In this document: piece by piece, positions 12,086 through 32,870 of the stretch
Position numbering within the stretch: the stretch's first letter is position 1
Layout of the letters: each line of letters begins with the position of its first letter
NCBI RefSeq assembly: GCF_003859795.1
Contig: NZ_RQYI01000020.1
Coordinates: forward strand, 1 to 43,596
From: Alloprevotella sp. OH1205_COT-284
Lineage (GTDB): Bacteria; Bacteroidota; Bacteroidia; Bacteroidales; Bacteroidaceae
DNA length: 43,596 nt
Reading direction: 5' to 3'
Notes under the pieces: generated by a model
Database searches by the model: none
Told to the model about the DNA's origin: nothing
Seen by the model: only the letters and a program-made list of their open reading frames with translations
Position numbers and translations under genes: made by a program

Positions 12086-12655
12086 AACGCACCTTTGGCT
12101 ACACACCAAATGCGTTTTTAGTTTTTTAGGGGGGCAGGATTGCCGTTATGCGGACTTCCCCCTATGGTTTATCTCGTAAAACGTCGAAAAACATACACTA
12201 TTTCTTGCATATTATTGAAATTCAGCAACATGTAAGTGTACATAACAGTTTGACGGCATACACAAGGAGTGTTTAAGTCTTTGATGCACAGACAAAAACG
12301 AATGTAGACGGATTTTCCCAAAACCTACACTGTCTACATGGTCGGGGGGGCGAGCATCTGCACACCTTCCCGATAGAGTGTGTAGGTTGTAATGACGAAT
12401 GTAGTTGAAACCTCGCATTGTCTACATTCCCAACGACCTATATATCTGCGACTTAACAAATAAAATGTAGACAATGTAGATAAAAACAAGAAAAAGTCCC
12501 GGTAAAGGCTGAAAGTTCCTTTTTTATAGAAGAAACTCCTCACCTCCTCTTCGGCTTGTCCGAATATATTTTCAATGCGTCGGAGCACATCTTACCTAAG
12601 GAGTAGAATAAACGGAGTAACGAGTAGAAAAATCTATCACTGACCTAAATTTCGC
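12086..12655 (+). repeat. Dispersed GTAGAC-palindrome element, copy B
   Basis: About 570 noncoding bases that align from end to end with copies C (23110) and D (32311). Shared landmarks in order: GTTTTTAG and a hairpin with outer stem 12127-12133/12158-12164; CGTAAAACGTCGAAAAACAT near 12174; ACGAATGTAGACGG near 12298 pairing with GTCTACAT at 12332-12339; GAATGTAG (12396-12403) pairing with CTACATTC (12422-12429); AATGTAGACAATGTAGA near 12464; a GCGTCGGAGCACA segment near 12577; GAGTAGAA repeats (12601-12629); and TCACTGACCTAAATTTC at the end. Insertions between copies break every reading frame, so it is not coding. It separates the rny operon from the polysaccharide cluster. Confidence 0.85.
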
Positions 12656-13008
12656 AAGTCCTTCATCGGCTCTCTCTCGGTGATTCGGATTTCCCGTAAT
12701 CGTCTAAAAGGCCTTTCCAATGTATGGAGGCCCTTCACCCTCAAAAATAGAATGAAACTTTTGCAGAAATCTCCTCTGATCTGTCAATCAACCGATCGCA
12801 TGCACACAAAGAATACAAAAACGAATGCCGGGTAAGCAATGTTTCTTCAAAGCAAATTGCCCTATTTACCACAATAAAACAAACCCAAAAGCGTTTATTC
12901 ATTAAACCTTGCCTTCGCATTGATACAACGAAACTACTCTTTCACTTCCTTTATCGGAAAAGGAGAAAGGAATAGCTCCGTGAACTGCGAACAGACCTTA
13001 AAACAAGA
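12656..13008. other. Gene-free stretch before the polysaccharide cluster
   Basis: No gene, clear promoter or strong hairpin is visible here. The promoter of the polysaccharide cluster should lie in this stretch but only weak -7-like sequences are present. Confidence 0.5.
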
Positions 13009-13653
13009 ATGAACGCCCATCATTTTATCATGCCTGACACCAACGTAACAGACGACGTAAACAACCACAAACGACTTTCTATCGGCCAACAATATACGAA
13101 AAGAGCATTTGATATTTTCTTCTCCTTCTGGGCACTCATCTTTTTGGCTCCCGTATTTTTGAGCATAATCATCCTGCAAAAAGCCACTTCGAAAGAATCC
13201 GTTTTTTTTCGACAAGAAAGGATAGGATTGAAAGGAAGACCTTTCATGATTCAAAAATTTAGGACGATGAAAGAAGATGCAGAAGAAAACGGGCCACAGC
13301 TGGCCAATGAGAAGGAACTAAACAAATACACCAAGTTGGGACTCTTTCTTCGCAGAACTCATCTGGATGAACTCCCACAATTATGGAACGTTCTGAAAGG
13401 AGAAATGTCGTTTGTGGGCTATCGACCGGAACGCCGGTATTTCATCGACCAAATTCTGAAAATAGACAACAGATACATCGAACTCTACGATATGCGCCCC
13501 GGCATCACTTCCGAAGCAGCGATCTATAACGGCTATACCGATACGATGGAGAAAATGTTACTTCGTCTTGACATGGATTTAGCCTATATGAAAAAAAGTT
13601 CCATCAAAACCGACTTGATCATACTTTTCAAAACTATCGGTATGTTTTTCTAA
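13009..13653 (+). CDS. Bacterial sugar transferase (polyprenyl-phosphate hexose-1-phosphate transferase type)
   Basis: Likely starts a polysaccharide repeat unit by moving a sugar phosphate onto undecaprenyl phosphate at the inner membrane. The 214 residues form the short, catalytic-domain-only version of the WbaP/WcaJ family: YTKRAFDIFFSFWALIFLAP (re-entrant or membrane helix), FFRQERIGLKGRPF, IQKFRTMKEDAE, RRTHLDELPQLWNVLKGEMS, FVGYRPER and MRPGIT. An in-frame ATG at 13030 is an alternative start. First gene of a nine-gene cluster in one direction. Confidence 0.92.
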   Translation: MNAHHFIMPDTNVTDDVNNHKRLSIGQQYTKRAFDIFFSFWALIFLAPVFLSIIILQKATSKESVFFRQERIGLKGRPFMIQKFRTMKEDAEENGPQLANEKELNKYTKLGLFLRRTHLDELPQLWNVLKGEMSFVGYRPERRYFIDQILKIDNRYIELYDMRPGITSEAAIYNGYTDTMEKMLLRLDMDLAYMKKSSIKTDLIILFKTIGMFF

Positions 13654-13693
13654 ATAAAGACATACAACATCATAGCTTGCAATACTTTCAATA

Positions 13694-16216
13694 ATGAATA
13701 TCAAGAAAATTTTCTTTCTGCTTGTTTTGGGCTGTTTATTTGTCCAAACAAGTTTTGCACAAAATACGATGAGCGACGAACAAATCATGTCGTTCGTAGC
13801 CAGAGAAAGAGCCAAGAATACTCCAAACAGTCAGATTGTCACACTATTGATCGAAAGAGGAGTTTCCATTGACCGCATCAGGAAGATCAAGGAAAAATAC
13901 GAAAAACAAAAAAATAAGACCATCCAAGGTGCCATCAATATTTCGGGAATAGACAAAAAGACAGAAAGCAGATTGCGCAAAAACAACGGAGAAAAAACGC
14001 AAGAACAAAATCCCAACTTCAAACATACGGCAAAGGAGACAGAAAACGAAATTGAACTTTCCGATTATGAAAAAGAAAGATTAAAAATAAAACGCCGAAA
14101 GGCGATGAGAAAAGAGCTTGATTTCGTTTTGGAAGACAGTATAGACTACGACGAAATAGAAGAAGAATATCTGCTCCCCAAGAAAAAAGAGAAACAAGTT
14201 TTTGGAAGAAATATTTTCAAAAACAAAGAACTGACCTTCGAACCGGAAATGAATATTGCCACTCCCTCTGATTACAGATTGGGAGCGGGAGATGCCGTAT
14301 ATGTAGATATTTGGGGAGCTTCCCAAAAACAATATATAGCCACAGTCAGTCCCGAAGGAGTGATCAATATTGAAAATTTCGGGCCGATTCAAGTCAGTGG
14401 AATGACAGTAGGACAGGCGAACAATCATGTTCGTTCGATACTGGGACAACGCTTCGGAGGTTCAAACATTAAACTCACCGTCGGACAGACCAAAACCATC
14501 ACCGTCAATGTGATGGGAGAAGTAGAACACCCTGGAACCTATACCCTATCGGCTTTTGCCACCGTATTCCATGCACTTTACATGGCAGGAGGAACCAATG
14601 AAATCGGAACGATGCGATCTATCAAGGTATATCGCAACAACAAACTGATTTCCAACATAGACCTTTATGACTATATTCTCAACGGAAATCTCAAAGGAAA
14701 CGTTCGCCTCGCCTCCAACGATGTCATCGTGGTGGGAGCATACGAATGCTTGGTAAACATCACGGGAAAAGTAAAACGCCCCATGTTTTACGAAATGAAA
14801 ACTTCGGAAAGCGTTGCCACCTTGCTCAAATATGCAGGCGGATTTACCGGCGATGCCTACGAGGATCAAGTGAAACTCGTGCGCAAAAACGGAGGTCTGA
14901 TCAGTGTCTATACCCTTGGAGATTTTGAAAGAGGGAAATTCCAATTGATGGATGCCGACTCTATCAGCGTAGATTCCGTGCTCAATCGTTATAAAAACAT
15001 GGTCGATCTGCGCGGCGCCGTGATGCGTCCGGGATTATATCAAATGGATGGCAACATATCTACCGTTCGACAACTCATCGAAACCGCAGGAGGGCTTACG
15101 GAAGATGCCATGACGACGCATGGCTTGATTCATCGTCGCAAAGAAGACCGTACCTTGATGACCGAACGCTTCAACATCGGTGCTTTGCTTAACCACAGCG
15201 CACCCGACATCGCGCTTCGTAATGAAGACGCCGTATTCATTCCATCACGAAAAGATCTGAATGAAGAACTCACATTGAGCATCGAAGGAGAAGTACGTTA
15301 TCCGGGGAAATATCAATTTTCCGAGAATACGACCATCGAATCTTTTATTCTGCAAGCCGGCGGACTGACAGACAAGGCCAGTTTGGCAAAAGTAGACGTA
15401 TCCAGACGCATTCGCGACAAAAAAGCAATGGTCACCGGCAATCAAATGGCCGAATTTTTCACATTCTCGCTCAAAGAAGGTTTTGTGATCGACGGAGAGT
15501 CTAATTTTATACTACAACCTTTCGACGAAGTATTCGTGCGCACTTCTCCCGGATACTACGAACAACAACATGTCATCATCGAGGGGGAAGTACCTTTTGC
15601 CGGTCGCTACACCATTACCAAGAAAAACACGCGTCTTTCCGATCTTGTCCAACTTGCCGGCGGAGTAACCAAAGATGCCTTTTTGGAAGGTGCCCGATTA
15701 GAACGCCAAATGACCGACATCGAGAAATTGAAACAACAAGAAATTATCAAAATTTCCAGCATTAACGACTCGACCGATGTCCGCAAGATACATATCGGCG
15801 AACAGAAGAACGTCGGAATACACCTTGAAAAAGCCCTTGCCAATCCCGGCAGCAACCGTTGGGACATTATTCTCAAAGACGGCGACCGTCTGATTATCCC
15901 CCAATTCGACAATACGGTCAGCATCAGCGGAGAAGTCATGTTTCCCAATACCGTGGCTTATAAACCCGGCGCAAACTTATCTTATTATATCAACCAATGC
16001 GGCGGATATAGTTTAAAAGCCAAAGAGCGACGTACATTTGCCGTCCACATGAACGGTACAGTGGGAAGAGTTCGTTCTTCAAAAGACATAAAACCCGGTT
16101 CCAACATCGTGGTGCCGGCCAAACGCAAGAGCAACATCCCATTCACCTCTTGGGTTTCGCTCTCCATGACCATAGCCACTTTGGCCGCAGTAGTTGTCAG
16201 TGCTTTCAAGAAATAA
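13694..16216 (+). CDS. SLBB-domain polysaccharide export outer-membrane protein (Wza-like)
   Basis: Protein of 840 residues that probably forms the periplasmic and outer-membrane channel for the polysaccharide. It has a signal peptide (KKIFFLLVLGCLFVQTSFAQ), a charged Lys/Glu-rich linker (about 25-180), a Poly_export domain from about 190 (YRLGAGDAVYVDIWG, SPEGVINIENFGPIQVSGMT), then a series of SLBB units recognised by repeats such as VMGEVEHPGTY, LRGAVMRPGLYQM, IEGEVRYPGKY, IEGEVPFAGRYT and ISGEVMFPNTVAYKPG. A C-terminal membrane helix (SWVSLSMTIATLAAVVVSAF) ends it. It is much longer than Wza of proteobacteria, as is usual in Bacteroidetes. Confidence 0.92.
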   Translation: MNIKKIFFLLVLGCLFVQTSFAQNTMSDEQIMSFVARERAKNTPNSQIVTLLIERGVSIDRIRKIKEKYEKQKNKTIQGAINISGIDKKTESRLRKNNGEKTQEQNPNFKHTAKETENEIELSDYEKERLKIKRRKAMRKELDFVLEDSIDYDEIEEEYLLPKKKEKQVFGRNIFKNKELTFEPEMNIATPSDYRLGAGDAVYVDIWGASQKQYIATVSPEGVINIENFGPIQVSGMTVGQANNHVRSILGQRFGGSNIKLTVGQTKTITVNVMGEVEHPGTYTLSAFATVFHALYMAGGTNEIGTMRSIKVYRNNKLISNIDLYDYILNGNLKGNVRLASNDVIVVGAYECLVNITGKVKRPMFYEMKTSESVATLLKYAGGFTGDAYEDQVKLVRKNGGLISVYTLGDFERGKFQLMDADSISVDSVLNRYKNMVDLRGAVMRPGLYQMDGNISTVRQLIETAGGLTEDAMTTHGLIHRRKEDRTLMTERFNIGALLNHSAPDIALRNEDAVFIPSRKDLNEELTLSIEGEVRYPGKYQFSENTTIESFILQAGGLTDKASLAKVDVSRRIRDKKAMVTGNQMAEFFTFSLKEGFVIDGESNFILQPFDEVFVRTSPGYYEQQHVIIEGEVPFAGRYTITKKNTRLSDLVQLAGGVTKDAFLEGARLERQMTDIEKLKQQEIIKISSINDSTDVRKIHIGEQKNVGIHLEKALANPGSNRWDIILKDGDRLIIPQFDNTVSISGEVMFPNTVAYKPGANLSYYINQCGGYSLKAKERRTFAVHMNGTVGRVRSSKDIKPGSNIVVPAKRKSNIPFTSWVSLSMTIATLAAVVVSAFKK

Positions 16217-16228
16217 GTACCTTTGCCA

Positions 16229-17668
16229 ATGCAAGATCTTAAAAAACTCTTTTTAAAAGGCATGGGATGGGGAGTCATTGATAATCTCTCCGGCACAGGG
16301 ATCAACTTCATTGTGGGAATTATCTTGGCTCGACAACTGTCTCCGCAAGAATTTGGCATTGTGGGAATAGCCCTTGTTTTGATAGGCATTTCCAATGTCA
16401 TTATTGATGGCGGTCTCTCCAATGCACTTATCAGAGATTCCAAAGCGGGAGAAAGAGAATATGCCACGGCATTGACCCTCAATATCACTGTCGGTCTCAC
16501 CTTATACATGCTCTTCTTTTGGGGAGCTCCTTGGGTTTCTGCATTCTATAAGATTCCCCAACTTACTCAGGTCATCCGCCTGCTATCTTTGGTACTTCTT
16601 TTTAACAGTATCACAATTGTTCCCAAAGCCAGATTGAGCAAAGCCGTAGATTTTCGGAAACAAGCAATAGCTTCTCTTTGCTCTTCTTTGATCAGTGCCG
16701 CAGTTGGAATTTCCATGGCATTTCGCGGTTTTGGCATTTGGTCTTTGGTGGCACAACAAATCACTCGCCAATCCATTTACGCACTTTGCTTATGGTGGCA
16801 GGTTCATCTTCTCCCTCGCCTCGGATTAAATTTCCGAATAGCACAACATTTGCTCTCGTTTGGGCTGCGCATCTTGCTTTCTGCCTTATTGGACAGTTTA
16901 TACAACAACCTTTATTATATGTTCATCGGTAAGCTCTATTCTCCGCGTCAACTGGGTTTATATACACGAGCAGAGCAATTTAGTTCTATTCTTGCCATCA
17001 ACTTTGGCATGGTATTACAAAAAGTATCTCTCCCCATTTTAACTCAAAGTCACGAGAATGAGAAAAAGATGCAACACACTTTCATCCGCTTACTGAACTT
17101 TTCCACCTTATTCTCTGCCCTTCTTTGTTTCTCCCTTTCGGCCACAGCCGAACACTTAATTGTCGTATTGATCGGGCCAAAATGGATAGAGAGTATTGAC
17201 ATTCTGCGCATTTTATGTTTTGCGGCTTTTTTTCAGCCTCTCATCATTGTTCATCAAAACATTTTGCAAGTATACGGAAAAGCCAAATTATTCTTACACT
17301 TGGAAATCTTTAAGAAATCCTTTGCTGTCTGCATCATTGTCGCAGGTATTGCTTGGAGCTTTACGGCATTGCTTTGGGGTATCGTGCTGATCTCCGTTCT
17401 TTCTTTAATGATTCATGCTTATCATAGCAGAAAGCTCATTCCGGCAATCACCCTCACCCTGCAACTACGTTCTATTCTCCGTTATCTGTTGAGCATCGGT
17501 TCATGGATGGGATTGGTCTATATCGTGGGAACGTTTATCGAAAATCCTTATATGGGGCTTTCGGTCCAACTCGGAGTGCTTGCTCTTGGTGGAGGAATAA
17601 TGTTGCGTTTCATATTCAAAGAAGAACGCGCACAAATATACAGTCTATTGAAAAGACAAAACGCATGA
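16229..17668 (+). CDS. Polysaccharide flippase (Wzx/MATE-like, Polysacc_synt family)
   Basis: Inner-membrane protein of 479 residues with about 12-14 hydrophobic segments that likely flips lipid-linked repeat units outward. Family features are the N-terminal KGMGWGVIDNLSGTGINF, ILARQLSPQEFGIVGIALVL, FRKQAIASLCSSLISAAVGI and the central FGLRILLSALLDSLYNNLYYMFIG followed by GLYTRAEQF. The ATG at 16229 was taken; a TTG 6 bases earlier is also open. The stop overlaps the next start (ATGA). Confidence 0.9.
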   Translation: MQDLKKLFLKGMGWGVIDNLSGTGINFIVGIILARQLSPQEFGIVGIALVLIGISNVIIDGGLSNALIRDSKAGEREYATALTLNITVGLTLYMLFFWGAPWVSAFYKIPQLTQVIRLLSLVLLFNSITIVPKARLSKAVDFRKQAIASLCSSLISAAVGISMAFRGFGIWSLVAQQITRQSIYALCLWWQVHLLPRLGLNFRIAQHLLSFGLRILLSALLDSLYNNLYYMFIGKLYSPRQLGLYTRAEQFSSILAINFGMVLQKVSLPILTQSHENEKKMQHTFIRLLNFSTLFSALLCFSLSATAEHLIVVLIGPKWIESIDILRILCFAAFFQPLIIVHQNILQVYGKAKLFLHLEIFKKSFAVCIIVAGIAWSFTALLWGIVLISVLSLMIHAYHSRKLIPAITLTLQLRSILRYLLSIGSWMGLVYIVGTFIENPYMGLSVQLGVLALGGGIMLRFIFKEERAQIYSLLKRQNA

Positions 17669-18411
17669 CGACACAGTTTCCATATTTACTAACGATCATA
17701 ACGGTGGTAAGAAATGCGGCATCCGAAATAGAATGCACGCTACAAAGCATTGCATCTCTTAAATCTGCCCATATCCAATATATTGTTCTCGACGGAGGAA
17801 GCACAGACGGAACGCAAGAAATCATTCAACGCTATGCACATATCATAGACTATTGGCATAGCCGCTCTGATCTGGGCATATATCATGCCCTCAATTCCGC
17901 TATCCATTTGGCCAAAGGCGCATTTATACTTACGATCAATGCCGGCGATCGTTTGTTGGCTTTTCCCCAAGAAGCATTACAAGAAGCATTGAAAAAAGAA
18001 TTGGATTTGGTTTGCTTCTCCGTGATGACAGAAGATGAGCAAATTGCCATCCCCGTTTGGAACGGCGATCTCCGGCTTTACAACACTCTTCCTCACCAAG
18101 GTTGCTGCTACCATTCACGTCTTTTTGAGCAATACAGATACGACATCCGATACCATGTTTATGGAGATTTTGATCTGAACCAACGTTTGTTTTTAGCCAA
18201 GACAAAAGCTCAGGTCTTTCCTGAAATCATTGCTTACCATGATCTGCAAGGTGTATCCAACGACAGTAAATTTGCCTCGGAAATGCTCAATGTAGTCCGT
18301 AGAAATTTAGGTCTCACAGGTTTGCTGTTTTCATGGCTCTACTTCAAAAAAGCCGGTCTGAAATTGCGATGGCATCGTTTACAAAACAGACTTCGTTTGT
18401 TCTTCTCGTGA
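17665..18411 (+). CDS. Glycosyltransferase family 2
   Basis: Cytoplasmic GT-A enzyme of 248 residues, probably adding one sugar of the repeat unit. Motifs: LTIITVVRNAASEIECTLQS, IVLDGGSTDGTQEIIQ, a WHSRSDLGIYHALNSAIHLA segment and LTINAGDR (DxD-equivalent). The start overlaps the flippase stop, which fixes it well; the frame is open further upstream but inside the flippase gene. The specific sugar cannot be told from sequence. Confidence 0.9.
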   Translation: MTTQFPYLLTIITVVRNAASEIECTLQSIASLKSAHIQYIVLDGGSTDGTQEIIQRYAHIIDYWHSRSDLGIYHALNSAIHLAKGAFILTINAGDRLLAFPQEALQEALKKELDLVCFSVMTEDEQIAIPVWNGDLRLYNTLPHQGCCYHSRLFEQYRYDIRYHVYGDFDLNQRLFLAKTKAQVFPEIIAYHDLQGVSNDSKFASEMLNVVRRNLGLTGLLFSWLYFKKAGLKLRWHRLQNRLRLFFS

Positions 18412-18434
18412 ATTGACTCTTTAAACTATCAACA

Positions 18435-19481
18435 ATGTACGAATTTGACTTAGCAACACTCCTCCGGACATTGAACGAAAAAAAGAAATATTTCTTCATC
18501 AATACCGGTATAGCCATCATCATAGGTTTGATTGTCGCTTTCAGTATTCCCAAGACTTATAAATCCCAAATACGTTTGGCCAGCGAATCTCCCAAGAGTG
18601 GGTTGTCCGGTGGTATGGGAGCCGTGGCGGCCATGGCCGGAATCAACCTAAGTACAAACGAAGATGCGATCAGTCCGGAACTTTATCCTACCATAGTGGC
18701 ATCCAACAAGTTTTTAATAGATCTGCTCTATTTACCCGTAAAAAACAAAGAAGGGAAATCCTATCCCTCCCTTCTTGCATTCTACCAGACCGAAACAAAG
18801 GAAGCTTGGTGGAGCGCCGGCATAAATAGCGTTATCAAAGGGATAAAAAGTCTTTTTACGACAAATACGGAGCTCTCTTTCTCGTCAAAAAACAGAATCA
18901 ATCCCCAACAACTCACTCTCAAAGAAGAAGCTCTGCTCAAATCCTTCAAACAGCAAATCATCTGTTCTATCGACAAAGAAACCGGTGTCATCACCCTCAG
19001 TGCCCTTAGTCAGGATCCCCTCGTGGCTAAGAATTTGGCAGAAGCTGCGGCCGTAAAACTCCAAAAGTTCATCACTGATTACAGAACAAACAAAGCCCGA
19101 ATCGATCTACAATATTACTCGACTTTGGAAAAACAGTTCTACGAAAAATATAAGCATGCACAGCAATCTTACATTGAATTTTCCGATAGTCATAATGATC
19201 TCTTTCTGAAAAGCTATACGACAAAAGAAACGGATTTGGAAAATCAAATGCAAAATGCGTTTAACGCCTATGCTCAGATGAAGCAACAAGTCGGTATTGC
19301 AGAGGGAAAAGTGCAAGAAAAAACCCCAGCGTTCACCATTGTGGAAGATGCCTACGTTCCCAATCGTGCCGACTCCCCCAAAAAACTTCTGTTGCTCATA
19401 GCTTTCTCATTTATCGGTTTTGTGGGAACCGGTATTTGGTTTTATCTGCGGTTGCTTTTCCCTGCCATCACCCCCCAATAA
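18435..19481 (+). CDS. Chain-length determinant protein (Wzz-like)
   Basis: Inner-membrane co-polymerase of 348 residues that should set polysaccharide length. Two membrane helices bracket a periplasmic domain: YFFINTGIAIIIGLIVAFSI at about 18-38 and LLLLIAFSFIGFVGTGIWF near 318-336. The proline-containing segment before the second helix (VEDAYVPNRADSPKK) is the usual Wzz signature. There is no C-terminal tyrosine kinase domain, so it is the O-antigen-type rather than the capsule Wzc-type version. Confidence 0.9.
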   Translation: MYEFDLATLLRTLNEKKKYFFINTGIAIIIGLIVAFSIPKTYKSQIRLASESPKSGLSGGMGAVAAMAGINLSTNEDAISPELYPTIVASNKFLIDLLYLPVKNKEGKSYPSLLAFYQTETKEAWWSAGINSVIKGIKSLFTTNTELSFSSKNRINPQQLTLKEEALLKSFKQQIICSIDKETGVITLSALSQDPLVAKNLAEAAAVKLQKFITDYRTNKARIDLQYYSTLEKQFYEKYKHAQQSYIEFSDSHNDLFLKSYTTKETDLENQMQNAFNAYAQMKQQVGIAEGKVQEKTPAFTIVEDAYVPNRADSPKKLLLLIAFSFIGFVGTGIWFYLRLLFPAITPQ

Positions 19482-19493
19482 TCATCCATCAAA

Positions 19494-20690
19494 ATGCTCA
19501 AATGCCCGAAAGATCTCGTTCAACAAGTGGGAAACGTCTTATTTTCCCTCTTTCTTCTTGTATTGATGCTTGATCCGGGCAATGCCATTTTGCATCTGAA
19601 AGATAAATTCTTCATACTCTTCTTAGGATACAACCTTTTATTCCTAAAACCTGACCTGCGTTTTCTTCTCCCCATTTTCACTGTTTTTGCTCTGCTTTTT
19701 TTCGGTTTTATCATGGGCAATGTTCAGGGCAATCCGATAGACCTCACTTATATGAGTGGAGTGTTCAAAGGAGTGAGTCCTTTGGTTCTTTTGTTGTGGG
19801 TAAAACATTACGATGTACTCAAACTGGCTCGCATCCCCGCCCTCATCACTTGCGTAGTCATCCTTATTCTCTATGGGTTCATCGTATCGAGCGACGCCAT
19901 TCAATATGCCGTTTTTCTATACTCCAAACAGCATAATGAGATGGTCATGATCACGACCCGTAATCTTCTCGGAATCAAATTTTTCGGAATGTATTATCGC
20001 TCTATCGTCAGCATCATTCCCATTCTCTTTTGTGTTCTCTTTACGGCTTTTTCTCCCTCTCATAAACGCAAACGCCACTTTTTTTTCGCAATCATTCTCA
20101 CCGCAACCTTTTTCATCAGCGGTACTCGTGCAATGATGCTCACTCCTTTGTTTGTGATTGGCATTTTACTGTTCAATAAGTTTTCTCAATACCCCAAAGG
20201 GAAATACCTACTCTACCCTCTGCTCATATCCGGTGTTTTTGCTTTCTTGTTGCTGATATTCCTACTTGCCACCCAAGAAGGCGATGCCTCCAACACTGTG
20301 AAATACGGGCATCTTGCCTCTTACGCCCGGCTCTTCAATGAGCACCCTCAATATCTTCTTTGGGGACAAGGTACCGGCAGCACCTTCTATTCCGAAGGGT
20401 TTAATGCCGTCACCGCCGAAACCGAATGGATCTATTTAGAGTTGTTGCGAAATTTCGGAGTTTTGTCACTCTTCATTTTAGGCGTCTATTTTTTTCCTCT
20501 TTACATCTTCTTCCGCCACAGACAAGATAAGTTCACCGCCGGTTTCGGACTTTGTTATTTTGGCTTTTTGCTCATTGCCGGCACCAATCCTTTTCTTCTC
20601 AACTCCCAAGGAATGACCGTTCTTTGGATGGTCTATTCTCACGCATATCACGTATCCAAAGCCTCCGAATCATGCCAGATGTTAAAATAA
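19494..20690 (+). CDS. O-antigen/polysaccharide polymerase (Wzy-like)
   Basis: Membrane protein of 398 residues with about 10 hydrophobic segments. It shows the O-antigen polymerase/ligase superfamily pattern: ISGTRAMMLTPLFVIGILLF, a large loop with LLWGQGTGSTFYS and VTAETEWIYLELLRNFGVLS, and two closing helices. Placement between Wzz and glycosyltransferases favours Wzy over a WaaL-type ligase, but the two cannot be separated by sequence alone. Confidence 0.85.
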   Translation: MLKCPKDLVQQVGNVLFSLFLLVLMLDPGNAILHLKDKFFILFLGYNLLFLKPDLRFLLPIFTVFALLFFGFIMGNVQGNPIDLTYMSGVFKGVSPLVLLLWVKHYDVLKLARIPALITCVVILILYGFIVSSDAIQYAVFLYSKQHNEMVMITTRNLLGIKFFGMYYRSIVSIIPILFCVLFTAFSPSHKRKRHFFFAIILTATFFISGTRAMMLTPLFVIGILLFNKFSQYPKGKYLLYPLLISGVFAFLLLIFLLATQEGDASNTVKYGHLASYARLFNEHPQYLLWGQGTGSTFYSEGFNAVTAETEWIYLELLRNFGVLSLFILGVYFFPLYIFFRHRQDKFTAGFGLCYFGFLLIAGTNPFLLNSQGMTVLWMVYSHAYHVSKASESCQMLK

Positions 20691-21499
20691 TATTTCCGGT
20701 CATCGTATTGTATCGCACACATCTCCGCGAAGCCCAAACCTACCGGACTTTGTTGTGCAATGATTCTTTTACGCATTTCATGATCTACGATAATTCTCCA
20801 GAGGACCATATCGTGGATACTCGTCTGTTGGATCGGCGTGCCGTATATGTCAGAGATACAAAGAATTCGGGTTTATCTCATGCTTACAACTACGCAGGAG
20901 CCTATGCCCGACAAGAAGGCTATACTCATCTTCTCATATTGGATCAAGACACCACCTTTCCTCCTCATGCCGCCGAAGTCTATCAAAACATCGCCTCCAC
21001 CTGTCCCCTCTCTGCTCCTTCTCTCCACATCGGAGAAAAACGCCCATTCTCTCCCGTAGATGTAAAAGGCTGGACATTGAAGGGTGTTTGTTTGCCTCCC
21101 GGAGAATATCCGCTCACTCGATTTTCTCCGGTAAACAGCGGCATTTGCGTTCGGTTGGATCTTTTCAACCAAGCCGGCGGCTATGACGAAAACGTGAAGT
21201 TAGACTACGCCGATTTTGTTTTTTCCCGACGCCTATCGCCATATCACTCCGTCTTCCGCCTCCTTCCTTTTGTTGCCCATCAGGATTTCTCCGACAACGT
21301 CACCGACACCGTCCAACTCCTCAGACGCTTGCGGCTTTATCTGAATAGTGCCACCAACATAAGAACTACATCGTTCATGGAAAAGGCCAAAATCGTCTAT
21401 CAAACCTTCCGTCACACGCTGTCCATAGGCTTTCGCACACGTTCGTTATCTCCCCTGACCTCCTACGTCAGACACTTCATCTTAAAACACCCCATATGA
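20672..21499 (+). CDS. Glycosyltransferase family 2 (rhamnosyltransferase-like)
   Basis: Protein of 275 residues from the ATG at 20672, 19 bases inside the end of the polymerase gene. Features: IIFPVIVLYRTHLREAQTY, FMIYDNSPEDH, NSGLSHAYNYAGAYARQEGY, LLILDQDTTFPP (DQD metal site) and SGICVRLDLFNQAGGYDE, LDYADFVFSRRL. This layout is like RfbF/WbbL-type rhamnosyltransferases, though the sugar is not certain. The stop overlaps the next start (ATGA). Confidence 0.88.
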   Translation: MPDVKIIFPVIVLYRTHLREAQTYRTLLCNDSFTHFMIYDNSPEDHIVDTRLLDRRAVYVRDTKNSGLSHAYNYAGAYARQEGYTHLLILDQDTTFPPHAAEVYQNIASTCPLSAPSLHIGEKRPFSPVDVKGWTLKGVCLPPGEYPLTRFSPVNSGICVRLDLFNQAGGYDENVKLDYADFVFSRRLSPYHSVFRLLPFVAHQDFSDNVTDTVQLLRRLRLYLNSATNIRTTSFMEKAKIVYQTFRHTLSIGFRTRSLSPLTSYVRHFILKHPI

Positions 21500-22209
21500 T
21501 TTCAGTCTGCATTGCCACTTACAACGGTGCCCGAACCATACACACCCAATTGTCTTCCATCATCGAGCAACTTTCCGAAGACGATGAGATCATCATTTCC
21601 GACGATCATTCCGACGACGAAACGCTTCGCATCATCGAGTCGTTTCAAAATCCTTCCATAAAAGTCGTCAATGGGCCCGGGAAAAAATCTCCCATTCCCA
21701 ATTTCGAGAATGCACTGCAACATGCCAAAGGCGAATACATTTTCCTTGCAGACCAAGACGATCGGTGGGAAAAAGGAAAAGTGAAAACGGTAATGAAAGC
21801 CCTGTCCGAGGGGTTCGACTGCGTGGTGAGCGATTGTTTCGTCACCGACGAACAATTCAACGTCACCGCCCCTTCTTTTTTCCAAGAAGTCGGTCTGCGC
21901 GAAGGTTTTTGGTATAATCTGCTCGTTCACAACTACTATTTGGGCTGTTGCATGGCTTTCAACCGGAAAGTTCTCGAAAAAGCCCTCCCCTTTCCGCCTC
22001 ATATCCCGATGCACGACATTTGGATCGGAAACGTCGCCGCCGCTTTCTTCAAAGTGAAATTCCTTCATGCCCCCCTCATCTCCTTCCGAAGACATCACAA
22101 CAATACCTCCTGCACGGCTTCTCCAAGCCCCTATACACTCAGAGAGAAAGTCCTGTTCAGGCTCAACATTCTTTGCCCTCTTTTTCGCCGTGCCTTGTCT
22201 TTTCGTTGA
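21496..22209 (+). CDS. Glycosyltransferase family 2
   Basis: Protein of 237 residues. Motifs: ISVCIATYNGARTIHTQLSS, IISDDHSDDETLRIIESF, YIFLADQDDRWEKGKV (DQDD metal site) and GCCMAFNRKVLEKALPFP, MHDIWIGNVAA. Short overlap with the preceding gene indicates co-translation. It resembles WcaA-type transferases; acceptor and donor are unknown. Confidence 0.9.
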   Translation: MISVCIATYNGARTIHTQLSSIIEQLSEDDEIIISDDHSDDETLRIIESFQNPSIKVVNGPGKKSPIPNFENALQHAKGEYIFLADQDDRWEKGKVKTVMKALSEGFDCVVSDCFVTDEQFNVTAPSFFQEVGLREGFWYNLLVHNYYLGCCMAFNRKVLEKALPFPPHIPMHDIWIGNVAAAFFKVKFLHAPLISFRRHHNNTSCTASPSPYTLREKVLFRLNILCPLFRRALSFR

Positions 22210-22252
22210 TTTTCGATAACACACACTTTCCCTTTCCCCATGGGTTTTCCTT

Positions 22253-23077
22253 ATGAAAATATCCATCATCACCGCCACCTACAACAGTGCCGAGACACTG
22301 CCGCAAACGCTCGAAAGCATTCTCTCACAAACCTACGATGATTATGAAGTCATCGTTGTCGACGGCCTTTCCACCGACGACACCATGAAGATTGTTCGGC
22401 ACTATGCCGGGCGTTTTTCGGGAAAACTGCGTTTTGTCAGCGAAAAAGACCGCGGACTCTACGATGCCATGAACAAAGGTTTGCAAATGGCCGAAGGCGA
22501 TGTTGTGGGCATTCTCAACAGCGACGATTTTTATACCTCCGACACCATCCTCCGACAAGTCGCCGACGCGCTGCAAACCACAGACGTCGATGCCGTCTAC
22601 GGCGATGTACACTACGTTTCGCAAAACAACACTCAGAAAATATTGCGACATTACAGTTCTCGCTTCTTCCGCCCTTGGATGATGCGCCTCGGCTTCATGC
22701 CCGCCCATCCGTCGTTCTACTGCAAGCGTCGTCTTTATCTTCGCCATGGGCTTTTCGACCTTTCCTACAAGGTGGCGGCCGATTTCGAGCAGCTCCTCCG
22801 CCTCATCTTCATTCACCGCATCTCCACTCGCTATCTCCCCCTCGATTTCGTGACCATGCGCGTGGGAGGTGCGTCGAGTTCGGGCTGGCACAGCCACAAG
22901 CGCATCATGGCCGACCACCTCAGAGCGTTGCGCGAAAACAAAGTATATTCCAACATCGGACTGCTCGCCATCCGCTATCTCTATAAAATCGGAGAAGTCA
23001 TCACCACCCGCAGCCTTATGGCCGTCAAAACGCTCACCGCTCGCACCTCGCGCCCGACGCATGTCGGCATCGAATGA
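22253..23077 (+). CDS. Glycosyltransferase family 2 (WcaE-like)
   Basis: Protein of 274 residues. Motifs: ISIITATYNSAETLPQTLES, VIVVDGLSTDDTMKIV, SEKDRGLYDAMNKGLQMAEG, GILNSDDFY (DxD-like) and MPAHPSFYCKRRLYLRHGLF, YKVAADFEQLLRL. Last gene of the uninterrupted cluster; a copy of the dispersed element begins about 30 bases after its stop codon. Confidence 0.92.
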   Translation: MKISIITATYNSAETLPQTLESILSQTYDDYEVIVVDGLSTDDTMKIVRHYAGRFSGKLRFVSEKDRGLYDAMNKGLQMAEGDVVGILNSDDFYTSDTILRQVADALQTTDVDAVYGDVHYVSQNNTQKILRHYSSRFFRPWMMRLGFMPAHPSFYCKRRLYLRHGLFDLSYKVAADFEQLLRLIFIHRISTRYLPLDFVTMRVGGASSSGWHSHKRIMADHLRALRENKVYSNIGLLAIRYLYKIGEVITTRSLMAVKTLTARTSRPTHVGIE

Positions 23078-23109: not shown

Positions 23110-23731
23110 ACGCACCTTCGGCAACACATCAAACGTGTTTTTAGGGGACAATAGCCCGTTATATGGGCTTCTCCAATGTTCTTTTCGTAAAAACGTCGAA
23201 AAACATACACTACACCTTTCATATCACTGAATTTCAACAAGATGCGAGTGTAGACAGATGTCTTACGATCATACACGGAAAGAAGTTAAGTCTATGATAC
23301 ACAAACAAAAACGAATGTAGACAGATTTTTCCAAAACCTACACTGCCTACACGGATGATTTCGAGCCTTTGCACGCCGTCCCGATTCCTTGTGTAGAATG
23401 TAACAACGAATGTAGATAATTTCTCGTGTTGTCTACATTCGCAACAATCTAAATATCTGCTCCTTAACAACAACAATGTAGATAATGTAGACAAAAAGAA
23501 GATAAACTCCCTGTAAGGAGTGAAAGTTGTTTTTTTCTCGAAGTTTTATCCCGATTTCTCTTCAGATTGGCCGGATATACTTTGAAGCGTCGGAGCACAC
23601 CTTACCCAAGGAGTAATGCAAACGGAGTAACGAGTAGAATTTTTTAGCTCAGACCTAAAAATTTTTTTCTCCAAGGTAGAATGCTCCGGATGCTCTCGGC
23701 AGAAAATCTATCACTGACCTAATTTCCCAAC
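23110..23731 (+). repeat. Dispersed GTAGAC-palindrome element, copy C
   Basis: About 620 noncoding bases with the same ordered landmarks as copy B. The left end GCACCTTCGGCAACACATC matches copy B at 12089. The 5' hairpin has inner stem AGCCC/GGGCT (23153-23157/23165-23169). CGAATGTAGACAG and CTACACTGCCTACACGG follow near 23311-23355, then an AATGTAGAT...TTGTCTACATT hairpin near 23410-23440, AATGTAGATAATGTAGAC, GCGTCGGAGCACACCTTACC and GAGTAGAA. Near the end TATCACTGACCTAA recurs after about 60 extra bases compared with copy B. Bases 23732-23883 show nothing clear. Confidence 0.85.
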
Positions 23732-28126: not shown

Positions 28127-28153
28127 CAACACGTTTTCTTCCATTTTACCGAA

Positions 28154-28726: not shown

Positions 28727-29544
28727 CTTACCGAATTTTGGTGCTCGACCTCGACGGAACGCTCACCAACAGCCGAAAAGAAATCACTCCTCCCACCCTC
28801 CGAGCCATCGAACAAGCCCAAGAGCAGGGCGTCACAGTTGTGTTGGCTTCCGGCCGACCCACTTATGGCATTGCTCCGCTGGCCGACCAACTCCGTCTTG
28901 ATCAGAAAGGCGGTTTCGTTTTGTCTTTCAACGGCGGACAAATCATAGACTGGCGCACGAAAGAAGTGATCTATCAACAGACGCTCCACCCCTCGCTGCC
29001 GCCTCGGCTATACGAAAAATCCCAACAACACGGGTTGCCTATCGTCACCTATCACGACGAGGTCATCCTCTCCGAAACGGAAAACGATCCTTATTTGGAA
29101 GAAGAGGCCTTTATCAACAAAATGCCCATTCGTCGCATCGACAACTTTCTTGATGCCATCGACGCCATAGGCGGAAGCCCCACGAAATGTCTCATGACCG
29201 GCCACCCCGAACAGCTCGTGGAAGTGGAGCGAGAAATGAAGGCAGAGTTTGCAGACGAAATGGAGATTTTCCGCTCCGCCCCTTTCTTTCTCGAACTCAT
29301 GCCCAAAGGCATAGACAAAGCCCTGTCGCTCTCGCGCTTGTTGGAGCATCTCGACATGCGGCGGGAAGAAAGCATTGCCTGCGGCGATGGTTTCAACGAT
29401 CTCTCCATGATTCGTTTCGCCGGTTTGGGAGTGGCCATGGCCAATGCCGAAGACGCCGTACGCAACGAAGCCGATCACATCACACTCTCCAATGAAGAAG
29501 ACGGCGTGGCGGCCGTTATCGAACGTTTCATCCTTTCCACCTGA
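28723..29544 (+). CDS. Cof-type HAD hydrolase (sugar phosphatase-like)
   Basis: Protein of 273 residues, HAD subfamily IIB (Cof/YidA). Motif I is VLDLDGTLTNS with Asp9 and Asp11 as nucleophile and acid, motif II lies in VVLASGRPTYG, motif III Lys in MPKGIDKALSLSRLL, and motif IV is CGDGFNDLSMI. Likely a broad phosphatase for sugar phosphates or flavin-type substrates. Coupled to the YfcE-like gene by an ATGA overlap. Confidence 0.93.
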   Translation: MTYRILVLDLDGTLTNSRKEITPPTLRAIEQAQEQGVTVVLASGRPTYGIAPLADQLRLDQKGGFVLSFNGGQIIDWRTKEVIYQQTLHPSLPPRLYEKSQQHGLPIVTYHDEVILSETENDPYLEEEAFINKMPIRRIDNFLDAIDAIGGSPTKCLMTGHPEQLVEVEREMKAEFADEMEIFRSAPFFLELMPKGIDKALSLSRLLEHLDMRREESIACGDGFNDLSMIRFAGLGVAMANAEDAVRNEADHITLSNEEDGVAAVIERFILST

Positions 29545-29547
29545 CTA

Positions 29548-29580
29548 TTTGTAATTTTTCTGTAAATCAGTACATTTTTG
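29548..29580 (+). promoter_or_regulatory. Probable promoter of the ECF sigma operon leader
   Basis: TTTG (29548-29551), a 19-base spacer and TACATTTTTG (29571-29580), a -7 box one base longer than usual. It implies a leader of about 140 bases before the sigma factor start. Confidence 0.5.
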
Positions 29581-29592
29581 TTGTGAGAAACA

Positions 29593-29727
29593 ATGGAAAA
29601 AGCCTCTATATTTTCCAAAGGTATGGTGTTTTCCACAAAAAACTTGTTTTCTGCTGTCACAAACCGCTCCCTTCTGCGTATTACATTCAGAAGGGAGCGT
29701 TTTTTCTCCTTCTCTCCATTCTCATGA
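29593..29727 (+). CDS. Possible 44-codon leader ORF ahead of the sigma factor
   Basis: An ATG at 29593 opens a 44-codon frame that runs through the terminator hairpin and stops at a TGA overlapping the sigma factor ATG (ATGA). The peptide begins MEKASIFSKGMVFSTKNLF and ends RRERFFSFSPFS. It has no recognisable domain. It could be a chance open frame, or a leader whose translation couples to or opens the hairpin before the sigma gene. Confidence 0.3.
   Translation: MEKASIFSKGMVFSTKNLFSAVTNRSLLRITFRRERFFSFSPFS
29665..29705 (+). terminator. Intrinsic terminator between the HAD gene and the sigma factor
   Basis: Arms 29665-29676 and 29688-29699 pair perfectly over 12 bases and are followed by six Ts (29700-29705). 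It sits only 18 bases before the sigma factor start, so it either ends the HAD operon or attenuates the sigma operon. Confidence 0.85.
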
Positions 29728-30296
29728 AATCGAACCCGACACCACATTTCCCCATGGTTTCGCCACCCGACGACAGCGGCGAACGGCTCACGGCGACCTT
29801 TGTACGCATCGGGGGAAGACTGCGCCGACTGGCCTTTCGGCTGTTGGGAGATGAAGATGAGGCAGACGACACCCTCCACGAGGCATTCTGCCGCCTTTGG
29901 ACAAAGCGCGAACGGATTGCCGTCGCCGAAAACGAAGAGGCCGTGCTCACCACCACCGTGCGCAATCTGAGCATCGACACCTTACGCAGAAAAAAAGCAC
30001 ACCCCACGACCTCGCTTGATGCACAAACCGACGATCGTTTTGAAAACCAAATTTCTGCCGCACACTATGAAGCCGTCGAAACAGACGAAAGAGAAGCGTG
30101 TTTCCGACAAGTGGAACGCCTCATCGAAACCCACCTCACACCGCTCCAACAGACACTGCTCAAACGGCGCGACATAGAAGACGAAAGCTATGCCGACATT
30201 GCCCGCGATTTGGGCATGCGGGAAGCGGCGGTAAGAATGCAGCTCTCGCGGGCACGACGCACGATACGCGAACTCTATCGACAACAAAAAAACTGA
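29724..30296 (+). CDS. ECF-type RNA polymerase sigma factor
   Basis: Sigma-70 family group 4 factor of 190 residues. Region 2 includes RLAFRLLGDEDEADDTLHEA and FCRLWTKRE, and region 4 includes LTPLQQTLLKRRDIEDESYA and GMREAAVRMQLSRARRTIRE (helix-turn-helix). The start at 29724 precedes the conserved part by about 25 residues; an ATG at 29754 is an alternative that would leave more room after the terminator. The next gene encodes an anti-sigma-like membrane protein 4 bases downstream. Confidence 0.92.
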   Translation: MKSNPTPHFPMVSPPDDSGERLTATFVRIGGRLRRLAFRLLGDEDEADDTLHEAFCRLWTKRERIAVAENEEAVLTTTVRNLSIDTLRRKKAHPTTSLDAQTDDRFENQISAAHYEAVETDEREACFRQVERLIETHLTPLQQTLLKRRDIEDESYADIARDLGMREAAVRMQLSRARRTIRELYRQQKN

Positions 30297-30300
30297 CAGC

Positions 30301-30792
30301 ATGACCACTCCCTCTCCTCATATCGAACAATGGCTCCAACTGGCCGAACGCTATTTCGCAGCACAGACCACCGAGAGCGAAGAGACCGAGCTTCGTGCCT
30401 TTCTAAACACTCCCGCCGCCGAAAACGAAGCCTTCGACGAACTGCGCGCCGTAATGGGATATGCCGCCGCTGCGCGCCGTCGCCACACGCCACAGACGGG
30501 CATCTCCCACGCCACGCGCCACGGGCTGCGCCACCCTGCATGGTTCAAAAACGCCGCTGCCGTTTTGCTCTTTTGCCTGATCGGCACAACCTCCGTAGGC
30601 ATCTATCGCTGGCGCAATCCCGACTGCATCGCCTACGTCGAGGGGCGGCGCATCACCGACAGCAAGGCCGTCATCGGCCAAATGAAACGCGCCATGCACA
30701 GCGCGATGGCCGACAAGGCCGAAACGCCCACTGCCGAAAGGCAGCTTCGCGACATGTTTTCCACACTCGAAACTCTTTCAACCGACAACTGA
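30301..30792 (+). CDS. Anti-sigma-factor-like single-pass membrane protein
   Basis: Protein of 163 residues. The cytoplasmic N-terminal part (HIEQWLQLAERYFAAQTTES through NEAFDELRAVMGYAAAARRR) resembles zinc-free anti-sigma or sigma-partner proteins of Bacteroidetes. One membrane helix lies at about 82-99 (NAAAVLLFCLIGTTSVGIY), and a periplasmic tail follows. Position directly behind an ECF sigma factor supports a regulatory role; this is inference from context, not from a firm domain match. Confidence 0.7.
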   Translation: MTTPSPHIEQWLQLAERYFAAQTTESEETELRAFLNTPAAENEAFDELRAVMGYAAAARRRHTPQTGISHATRHGLRHPAWFKNAAAVLLFCLIGTTSVGIYRWRNPDCIAYVEGRRITDSKAVIGQMKRAMHSAMADKAETPTAERQLRDMFSTLETLSTDN

Positions 30793-30798
30793 CCTGCC

Positions 30799-31242
30799 AT
30801 GAAACGTCTTCTCTTTTTTCTTCTCATCCTATGGGGCACGATCGCGGCCACGGCGCAAAGTCATCTCAATGTTGCTCCTTTTTTCACCGAGCGTTTCACT
30901 CGTCGCAACGACGTTGTTTCCGTGATGCTCAAAGGCAGAAAAGCCGCACAATATCGGCTGTCGCTATTTCGCAGCATCACCGTGCCGACCACGCCCGAAG
31001 AGGTGGAGCGGGTGGAGCGAGCCGTGCGCAGCGACGCCCGACGTGCGCTGCAACAAGAGGCCGGCACGAAAGACGGCCGCCTATACTACGGCTTCTATCA
31101 TCTGGCCTCGAAAAAAAACAAAAACACCTTTCTCTTCTATCGCAACAACGCCCTGTCGGGAAGTGGCGACAACACGTTCATCCTTATCTATATCGAAGGC
31201 GAAGCAGGGCTTTCGGAACTCAAACGCATCTTTGGAAAATAA
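30799..31242 (+). CDS. Small exported protein of the sigma operon
   Basis: Protein of 147 residues with a signal peptide (MKRLLFFLLILWGTIAATAQ). The mature part includes FFTERFTRRNDVVSVMLKGR, YRLSLFRSITVPTTPEEVER, YYGFYHLASKKNKNTFLFYR and a closing FILIYIEGEAGLSELKRIFG. It looks like a small alpha/beta periplasmic domain found in Bacteroidetes sigma operons; no family was confirmed. Spacing of 6 bases from the anti-sigma-like gene indicates one operon. Confidence 0.8.
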   Translation: MKRLLFFLLILWGTIAATAQSHLNVAPFFTERFTRRNDVVSVMLKGRKAAQYRLSLFRSITVPTTPEEVERVERAVRSDARRALQQEAGTKDGRLYYGFYHLASKKNKNTFLFYRNNALSGSGDNTFILIYIEGEAGLSELKRIFGK

Positions 31243-31267
31243 AATATCACTCCCCTATCGTGTTATT

Positions 31268-32149
31268 ATGAAAAAGCATCTCCTACTTCTTTCGGCACTG
31301 ACCGCCATTTCGGCCTTTGCCTCGCAACCCAACGACACCATTACAGACGTTCGGCAACCGCAACGTGTGCTCGTCACCCAAACCGACAATGCCGTCAGCA
31401 TCGACATACACGGTTCGGCCACCGACAGCACTTATCGTTTCAACTATCAGGTGCCAACCAAAGGCACGTCGCTCGTCATCGAGTCGGGAAACAAATGGGA
31501 TTTTTCCCTTACACAACTGTTCAAAACCCAAACAAAGAGCAAGAAGCCGTCGCGACATTTTAGCAACAGGAAGTTTCTGGGAGGCGGTCTGAACATAGGT
31601 TTCAACCACTTCGTCGGTGCCGGCCGTGAAGCGGACAATGTGGCGGGCAGCAGTTTCGACGCCGATCTCACGATTTTAGGCATTAAGATTGAAAACCATC
31701 TTCACTCCTTCATGCTCACTTGGAGCTATGGATGGTCGAAATACAGGCTCGACGGCTACAACTATTTTCACTTCGACGGCTCCCGTGTAAGCATCGGCCC
31801 CTATCCCGAAGGGGTGCAACCCGGCCGCTCGGTGTTTAGGCTCAACCGCCACTCGATCAACCTCTTCTATCGCTATGAACCGAAGGGATCATGGAGCGTG
31901 ACATTCGGCCCGACACTCAACCTGCATGTTCGGCCGCGCATCTACAATCAATATTGGAAAGACGGAATGTTGCAGAAAGAGTTTCACAAACACAACATTC
32001 ACTACAATCCCGCCACCGTCAGCCTTTTGGGCGCGGTCGGTTATAACGACTTTCATTTCTATGTGAAATACAATCCCGCTTCGGTGTTCCAAAAAGGGTT
32101 CGGCCCGCAATTCCAAACCCTCACAACGGGTGTATCTCTTTTCTTCTGA
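31268..32149 (+). CDS. Outer-membrane beta-barrel protein of the sigma operon
   Basis: Protein of 293 residues from the ATG at 31268, with a signal peptide (KKHLLLLSALTAISAFA). A linker to about residue 95 is followed by amphipathic barrel strands: GGGLNIGFNHFVGAG, FMLTWSYGWSKYRLDG, SINLFYRYEPKGSWSVTFGP, LLGAVGYNDFHFYVKYNP and a terminal strand GVSLFF ending in Phe, as barrel proteins do. Probably about 8-10 strands. It completes the sigma, anti-sigma-like, exported, barrel order, suggesting an envelope-stress or envelope-monitoring operon. Confidence 0.8.
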   Translation: MKKHLLLLSALTAISAFASQPNDTITDVRQPQRVLVTQTDNAVSIDIHGSATDSTYRFNYQVPTKGTSLVIESGNKWDFSLTQLFKTQTKSKKPSRHFSNRKFLGGGLNIGFNHFVGAGREADNVAGSSFDADLTILGIKIENHLHSFMLTWSYGWSKYRLDGYNYFHFDGSRVSIGPYPEGVQPGRSVFRLNRHSINLFYRYEPKGSWSVTFGPTLNLHVRPRIYNQYWKDGMLQKEFHKHNIHYNPATVSLLGAVGYNDFHFYVKYNPASVFQKGFGPQFQTLTTGVSLFF

Positions 32150-32235
32150 TTTCGGAAAGCCGGCCGGACAATGCGGCATAACGCATAGAAAAAACGACTT
32201 GGTGAGGCAAAGCATTCTACACCGCGGTGCAGAAA

Positions 32236-32276
32236 TTCCCAAGCAACGAGTAGAATTTCCCAAGCAACGAGTAGAA
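32236..32276 (+). repeat. Tandem pair of a 20-base unit
   Basis: TTCCCAAGCAACGAGTAGAA occurs at 32236-32255 and again at 32257-32276. A related TTCCTAAGCAACGAGTAGAA stands inside copy D near 32827-32846, and GAGTAGAA also ends the other copies, so this pair is probably part of the dispersed-element family. Confidence 0.8.
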
Positions 32277-32310
32277 ATTCTCGCCGCCTCCTCCTTCCCC
32301 TTTATTGCCG

Positions 32311-32870
32311 AACGTGGTTTTTAGGGGGAGGAGGGGATTGTCCATGATACGGACTTCCTAAGTGTTCTTTTCGTAAAATCGCCGAAAACATACACTGCGC
32401 CCTGCATTCCACTGAATTTCAGTAATATGCGAATGTATATGGCGGTTTGCGATCATACACGGAAAGAAGTTAAGTCAATGATACACAGACAAGATATGAA
32501 TGTAGGCAGTTTTTCCGAAAACCTACACTGCCTACACGGACGCTGTCGAGCCTTTGCAAGCCTTCTCGATGCCGCGTGTAGGTTATTGCGACGAATGTAG
32601 ATATTTTTCCGTGTTGTCTACATTCACAACAATCTACATATCAGAGCATTAAAAGGAAAATGTAGACAATGTAGACAAAAATAAGAAAAACTCCCTGTAA
32701 GGGCTGAAAGTTGCTTTTTTCCATGAAGAATTGTTTCTGCTCCTCTTCGGTTTTTCCGGATATTCTTTAATGCGTCGGAGCGCAGCTTACCCAAGAAGTA
32801 GAATAAACGGGGTAACGAGTAGAAATTCCTAAGCAACGAGTAGAAAAATCTGTCACAGACCTCAATCTCA
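32311..32870 (+). repeat. Dispersed GTAGAC-palindrome element, copy D
   Basis: About 560 noncoding bases with the ordered landmarks of copies B and C. The 5' hairpin has outer stem TTAGG/CCTAA (32321-32325/32357-32361) and inner stem GTCC/GGAC (32340-32343/32351-32354). AAAACCTACACTGCCTACAC lies near 32518; GAATGTAGATA and TGTCTACATTC form a hairpin near 32594-32626; AATGTAGACAATGTAGACAA follows near 32658; then TAATGCGTCGGAGCGCAGC, two GAGTAGAA and TGTCACAGACCTCAATCTC. It lies between two genes whose ends face each other. Bases 32871-33151 show nothing recognisable. Confidence 0.85.

Follow-up and report, generated by a model that had tools for sequence, protein, structure and literature searches.

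What is the noncoding element that occurs three times, always on the plus strand, in the 43,596-nucleotide window studied here (the window being the whole stretch of Alloprevotella sp. OH1205_COT-284 DNA that we analysed)? A sequence-only reading had described three copies of 550–600 bases, alignable from end to end and each downstream of an operon end, and had proposed a structured RNA, a nucleoid or regulator binding array, or a non-autonomous mobile element. The observation is confirmed and proves larger than first reported. The interpretation is partly supported.

Three collinear noncoding stretches are indeed present on the plus strand. They lie outside genes according to our own open reading frame (ORF) model, match the family profile at E ≤ 4.6e-152 and share pairwise identities of 75, 75 and 80%. 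Copy 1 spans 12086–12668, with a 5′ module at 12086–12120 and the core and tail at 12121–12668 (profile E 1.3e-156; the best other copy is 82% identical over the full query). Copy 2 spans 23110–23670 (profile match 23133–23670, E 9.9e-156; BLASTN match from 23110) and shares 89% identity over 462 bp with a copy at C35:14168. Copy 3, at 32311–32831 (E 4.6e-152), has a second tail match at 32832–32887 and is 90% identical to the copy at C14:21145. Similarity of this degree among the three is far from what chance would give, and the same genome contains another 52 copies. The region between copies 1 and 2 (13009–23077) is a capsule or exopolysaccharide-type locus by Pfam annotation, with genes for a sugar transferase, an SLBB export protein, a flippase-type protein and glycosyltransferases.

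Copies of this element, henceforth referred to as family A, number 55 in the genome (G000; 2.305 Mb in 93 contigs) and occur on both strands, so that the uniform plus-strand orientation stands for the three copies in the window and not for the genome. The count comes from a profile of a 131-bp core, built from the sequences of 39 copies and used to score the best 150 of 1209 first-look candidates. The 55 copies were matched at E 2e-21 or better, the next match has E 0.004, and the gap between them is empty. Using copy 1 as the query in its own genome, nearly all of the best 40 of 109 candidates that we scored were full-length or partial copies, and copy 3 as the query added further ones. A whole-element profile recovered 55 copies in the retrieved stretches, most of them near full length; solitary module matches are also present, for example to profile positions 1–70 at C2:133204 (E 1e-4). 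Mean pairwise identity is 73% in the 54 aligned copies (the remaining copy, truncated at the start of contig C16, was not used), and the closest pair is 93% identical. The copies are therefore many and dispersed rather than one local segmental duplication. Many copies with conserved ends had been named as the sign of a family: the copies are there, whereas their ends differ.

We searched for the family outside this genome. BLASTN of copy 1 found no copy in 57 congeners (at most 10 candidates scored per genome), and in 40 relatives, a set that overlaps the congeners, it found copies in the own genome only (at most 14 candidates scored per genome). A core pattern with 23 fixed bases had no exact match in the GTDB species contigs and IMG/VR, a search that possibly did not include the own genome, and copy 1 had no match in phage and plasmid collections. 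The exact string TGTAGACAATGTAGA occurs 43 times in the own genome and once each in two of 148 other genomes. No description of such an element in the genus was found in the accessible parts of the open-licence literature, and the available portion of PMC8040213 contains no matching element.

The common core measures ~480 bp. The three stretches in the window can be aligned along their length, as described before, but the ends of the element are not sharp. Beyond the core, the point at which similarity is lost varies widely between copies, from a few to ~370 bp upstream and from 33 to ~270 bp downstream (~395 in one pair), so a fixed transposon end is lacking. The core contains eleven oriented sites, TGTA (>) or TACA (<), at consensus positions <18, >61, <83, >127, <150, <159, >203, >222, <245, >288 and >297. 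Eight of the eleven read TGTAG/CTACA. Inward-facing pairs are 22–23 bp apart, outward-facing pairs 43–46 bp and tandem sites 9 bp, and the whole forms two roughly mirrored halves. Among the 54 copies, the commonest distances from site 1 to site 6 are 43 (53/54), 22 or 23 (27 and 24), 44 (44), 23 (50) and 9 bp (54), and those from site 6 to site 11 are 46 or 44 (22 and 21), 19 (54), 23 (50), 43 (42) and 9 bp (54). Across these ten intervals, two of which are bimodal, the modal length is kept by 22–54 of the 54 copies. Six arbitrary intervals downstream of the sites also keep their modal length in 26–50 copies, so constant length alone is weak evidence and the spacing is not uniquely strict. The site letters themselves stand out: all eleven TGTA/TACA cores are intact in 41 copies, ten in 12 copies and nine in one, compared with an average of 24 of 54 copies matching the consensus in other 4-column windows.

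In the window, the ladders of sites lie on the plus strand at 12194–12480 in copy 1 (read from the sequence; motif cluster 12099–12475, geometric matches at 12259 and 12400), at 23206–23491 in copy 2 (four geometric matches from 23206 to 23411; motif cluster 23210–23486) and at 32391–32675 in copy 3 (four geometric matches from 32391 to 32596; motif cluster to 32670). These geometric matches come from a scan that used only the arrangement of sites (TACA, 41–45 bp, TGTA, 22–24 bp, TACA, or its mirror image). The scan gave 50 matches in 408 kb of the own genome, every one within either array B, the divergent array described below, or one of the 14 copies of family A in that sequence. In congeners it gave 40 matches in 30 loci of G073, 21 in 12 loci of G048 and one in six loci of G065; 80 loci from other species, 1.245 Mb together, had none. 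Four control motifs gave 0, 1, 0 and 4 matches in the same 408 kb and 5, 1, 1 and 0 in the 80 other-species loci.

Tandem oriented sites at 9–12 bp, arranged in arrays, could suggest dispersed segregation (centromere-like) or replication-type sites for a partition or initiator protein. A similar tandem, oriented style is found in plasmid iterons and parC-type centromeres. Such sites are usually few and near an origin, and the 55 dispersed copies are unlike that. DUF3987, the replication family that we searched for, is absent from the own genome. We consider this explanation improbable. A VirE-type primase was a separate idea, rejected on the same absence.

Are the sites maintained in each copy, or inherited from a few source copies? 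Of the 10.3 substitutions per site in a FastTree tree, 8.5 (83% of the tree length) fall on terminal branches. We counted Fitch changes on these branches in 12 motif windows (eight TGTAG/CTACA and four ATACA/TGTAT), which were chosen after seeing the alignment, and found 1.3 changes per column compared with 6.07 in 420 other columns. The 12 windows total 78 changes, against a mean of 328 for randomly chosen sets of the same size, none of which was as low in 20,000 draws. The eight TGTAG/CTACA windows have 2, 2, 5, 1, 0, 5, 3 and 0 changes (18 in 40 columns, 0.45 per column), about 13-fold fewer than other columns. A twelfth motif, ATACA at position 108, is poorly conserved (32 changes). Because the sites are conserved on terminal branches, the pattern points to selection acting on each standing copy in place, and not only on past source copies.

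A structured RNA or 3′-UTR element at operon ends, serving as a terminator or mRNA stabiliser, would account for the inverted arms and for the location at gene 3′ ends. The predicted fold of one copy is more stable than those of its shuffles (z −3.1), and the consensus folding energy of the whole element is −38, far below the −8 of column shuffles. However, a z of −3.1 is what inverted arms or motifs would give, and RNAalifold predicted 13 pairs in the core, none of them compensatory in 39 copies (covariation term 0.06). Over the full alignment, both strands have an unfavourable covariation term of ~+1. No known RNA family was matched: Rfam gave no hit in the window at the gathering threshold and none up to E 1 for 12000–12750. 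A structured RNA, one of the options first proposed, is thus not supported by these comparisons, and we regard it as very improbable. Arms that do not vary carry no information about pairing; a site that recurs at set distances, both directly and inverted, is what would be predicted for protein binding. We infer that each copy is very probably a docking array in double-stranded DNA to which a protein binds.

The placement of the copies bears on what such an array would do. All 55 copies lie outside predicted genes, as called with two versions of our ORF model. The position downstream of a gene end holds for all three copies in the window, which begin 139, 56 and 162 bp after the upstream gene end (copies 1, 2 and 3). 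In the genome as a whole, both neighbours are visible for 44 copies, of which 20 are flanked by convergent, 20 by co-directional and 4 by divergent genes. As a background, 22 of 269 other gene pairs on three whole contigs are convergent (Fisher P 8e-9 against the 44 copies), or 20 of 159 when only gaps of ≥100 bp are considered (P 7e-6). On those three contigs the copies themselves comprise 4 convergent cases out of 14, with 8 co-directional and 2 divergent. Copies between divergent genes are not significantly depleted (P 0.46).

Copies also keep their distance from one another. The 28 gaps between copies on the same contig are all at least 8.88 kb long and reach 70 kb. With rounded midpoints as copy positions, a simulation of uniform placement predicts 8.9 gaps of <8.5 kb, and none of 20,000 simulations was without one; a null model of intergenic slots weighted for convergence (C1, C2 and C12) gave P 0.003. 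The signal is weaker in G073. There, on three contigs with all 44 pattern loci, one of 41 gaps is <8 kb (expected 4.8, P 0.03) and the shortest gap measures 1.8 kb (P 0.78); once seven of the 44 loci were dropped by motif, 0 of 34 gaps are <8 kb (P 0.02) and the minimum is 9.5 kb (P 0.01). Given the intergenic location, the preference for convergent genes and the minimum distance of ~9 kb, chromosome organisation is the most likely role for the arrays, one whose probability we would put just short of even. About 9 kb is close to the usual size of a bacterial supercoil domain. For E. coli, the accessible part of PMC3820752 gives 400–500 supercoiled domains per chromosome, or about 10 kb each by our own division.

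The window also contains a fourth array. The count of three copies is right for family A, and a divergent array (family B) lies at the contig end, at 25–334 on the minus strand (profile match 334–25, E 4e-18; geometric match at 59), with a weaker plus-strand profile match at 56–357 (E 1e-11). Its second copy, at C26:1–599, is 90% identical. The window contig and C26 start alike (90% over 600 bp, array B) and are broken at the same point, beyond which there may be an unassembled repeat, perhaps a larger element. Arrays with other spacers were also found at C15:1, C22 and C30. Between outward-facing sites, TGATAATCA is often present (window 235–243; also L217, L184 and L187) and might serve as a bending site for a protein of the HU/IHF type. 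The family A consensus lacks it, and one of its outward segments has CTGAATTTCAG instead. The pattern CTACA..TGATAATCA..TGTAG occurs in 13 of 393 genomes of the order including the own genome, mostly as single chance-like matches, and in at least 120 stretches of viral sequence; the pattern is too weak.

We compared these arrays with those of related genomes. For the RNase Y of the own genome, the match listed first is an uncultured Alloprevotella bin (83%); an unlabelled bin scores 85%, and genomes of the Prevotella type come next. Tandem TGTAG pairs, counted in 58 genomes against a reversed-pattern control, number 112 versus 3 in G000, 88 versus 7 in G073, 73 versus 11 in G065, 40 versus 6 in G048, 25 versus 7 in G010 and 19 versus 4 in G023, and are near the control in most other genomes. 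The lack of this excess in most of the 57 congeners is odd for a housekeeping role, unless dialects hide the arrays. From weak profile matches, the best at E 0.002, we reached loci in G073, G023 and G065 that recur inside their own genome, and arrays with other flanking or core letters are present in the four congeners examined (G073, G048, G065 and G023). Their sites read GTGTAAGAT and GTGTAGACA in G073, GTGTAGGTA in G023, GTGTAGGAT in G065, and TGTAGGGTTTG and TGTATAGTTTG in G048. The rule of conserved sites also applies to 18 aligned G073 loci, picked by motif from 30: the words repeated most often in them have a mean identity of 0.95 (GTGTA) and 0.94 (CTTACA), compared with a core mean of 0.80.

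The distances between sites recur in part of this set. In hand-picked arrays, most outward pairs are 41–45 bp apart, with 32 bp in one locus of G048, and most inward pairs are 23 bp apart except in G065 and G023. When all retrieved loci are considered, 23 bp is the top inward distance in family A, G073 and G048. The top outward distance is 43/44 bp in family A and 45 bp in G073, 43/44 rank second and third in G048, and the outward distance is one among several in G065 (44 bp, 6/42) and G023 (41 bp, 4/29). The 80 loci of other species peak at neither 23 bp inward nor 43–45 bp outward. G073 and G048 therefore share both the 43–45 and the 23-bp distances, and G065 and G023 only the outward one of 41–44 bp. 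Flanking genes match those of our own arrays at 3 of 36 G073 loci (some overlapping, and including putative arrays), 5 of 12 in G048, 0 of 6 in G065 and 0 of 5 in G023; array positions appear mostly not to be shared between species. Among individual loci, an inverted GGGGGCGACGCG...CGCGTCGCCCCC module recurs at G073 array edges (L184 and the G073 family consensus). A G023 locus (L190, 1821–1931) has a 21-bp tandem unit beside its TGTAGGTA array, as 21-bp units occur in the own genome. A 1.6-kb stretch of G048 (L219, G048:C54, ~3798–5432) has ~150-bp inverted ends of TGTATAGTTTG/TGTAGGGTTTG sites and a 22-bp tandem array inside, and looks, from its sequence, like a transposon-like or composite version.

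The main rival to a docking array is a non-autonomous, MITE-like transposon whose mirrored multi-site halves would be transposase-binding ends of the Mu or Tn7 type. Target immunity would then account for the distance of ~9 kb between copies, and their intergenic location would follow from selection against insertions into genes. Mu and Tn7 ends each carry several oriented protein sites, and target immunity is known for these elements. The likeness to them, as far as the available part of PMC7350765 goes, consists of several oriented sites per end and mutually distant copies; family A differs in that neither common ends, in the copies compared, nor a transposase, among the ORF pairs listed, was found. 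Dispersed species-specific families, roughly mirrored site clusters in each copy, a variable interior, the minimum spacing and the patchy presence in the genus would all fit a transposon, as would the 1.6-kb stretch of G048, the ends of which match one segment of another locus in opposite orientation. On the other hand, family A copies have no common end sequence on either side, visual inspection of the edges of the six closest pairs shows no evident target duplication, and no near-identical copies exist. Among the ORF pairs listed (part of 1028 own pairs), recurring ORFs overlap the array itself, and neither a transposase partner nor recurring flanking genes appear. Sites kept on long terminal branches are also not expected of dead insertions. 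A transposon thus explains the species-specific spread and the spacing, and leaves the missing ends, the missing young copies and the lasting site conservation unexplained; we consider it unlikely. The proposed mobile element would fit the dispersal and species specificity of the copies, but no common ends and, among the ORF pairs listed, no transposase were found.

We also considered whether family A belongs to a described class of repeats. Porphyromonas gingivalis is a member of the Bacteroidales. Its BrickBuilt MITE is always intergenic, restricted to one species and a close relative, and 84–991 nt long, with IS5-like terminal inverted repeats (TIRs), a 23-nt tandem core, and leader and tail modules, according to the accessible part of PMC4596501. 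By that description it resembles family A in its intergenic and species-limited occurrence, large size, modules and short tandem units (PMC4596501). Both have a host in the Bacteroidales, and BrickBuilt is the nearest described large intergenic element. Family A is not a member: its copies have no common ends, and the BrickBuilt TIR string GAGACCTTTGCA, allowing ≤2 mismatches, occurs six times in the window versus 3.9 by chance and never inside a copy. The 23-nt tandem core is absent too, the conserved part being a spaced ladder of sites. Tandem units of 21 bp were detected by TRF in the window only at 517–569 and 32231–32280, both outside the ladders. The latter (plus strand, 2.4 copies, score 93) adjoins copy 3 upstream, and its positions 32245–32277 match the tail of copy 3 at 94%, the 21-bp unit being common to both.

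REP units are palindromes of 20–40 bp that carry a GTAG tag and have cognate RAYT transposases, as described in the part of PMC3733652 that was available. GTAG-REP/BIME repeats are, in the same account, intergenic, mostly in convergent or co-directional contexts, oriented, often inverted and often species-specific, as are the arrays described here (PMC3733652). The GTAG string also occurs within eight family A sites. In contrast to REP/BIME, family A is ~480 bp long with eleven TGTA sites at set distances, and we reject membership because the sites are members of a spaced ladder and not tags of short palindromes. Unlike the GTAG tag, the sites of G073 use TGTAAG (GTGTAAGAT) and those of G048 also TGTATAG, with the same geometry. 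The RAYT signature PNHxH was not found in 702 kb (overlapping) of the own genome. REP/BIME repeats are the nearest functional analogue.

As a whole, these results lead us to favour, by a modest measure, a phased protein-docking array that is probably chromosome-organising. Of the options first proposed, a nucleoid or regulator binding array is the best supported, by oriented conserved sites, near-fixed spacing and the same distances with other letters in two congeners. In this explanation, a dedicated sequence-specific DNA-binding protein would bind the eleven sites cooperatively to form a higher-order complex. Distances near multiples of 11 bp would place the sites on similar faces of the helix, and the mirrored halves, with their alternating inward and outward pairs, would suit cooperative assembly or looping. 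The arrays would then act as boundary, anchor or topology-managing sites at the ends of transcription units, and REP/BIME repeats have been proposed to act in a comparable chromosome role. Related proteins would presumably bind the arrays of the congeners. More tentatively still, the arrays may represent a system for organising the chromosome in this genus of the Bacteroidales, dispersed between convergent operons at distances of at least ~9 kb, in which the geometry (9, 23 and 43–45 bp) is kept and the letters drift into species dialects along with a co-evolving binding protein.

The 54 diverged copies provide a test case for distinguishing host-selected repeats from transposons, because constraint can be read for each copy. 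If the copies were transposon ends instead, their minimum spacing would serve as evidence from a natural genome that a new family has target immunity. If they are bound as proposed, they would be candidate boundary or anchor sites that are defined by sequence and spread over a whole bacterial genome; a family of binding proteins would go with them, and their simple geometric code could be searched for in any genome.
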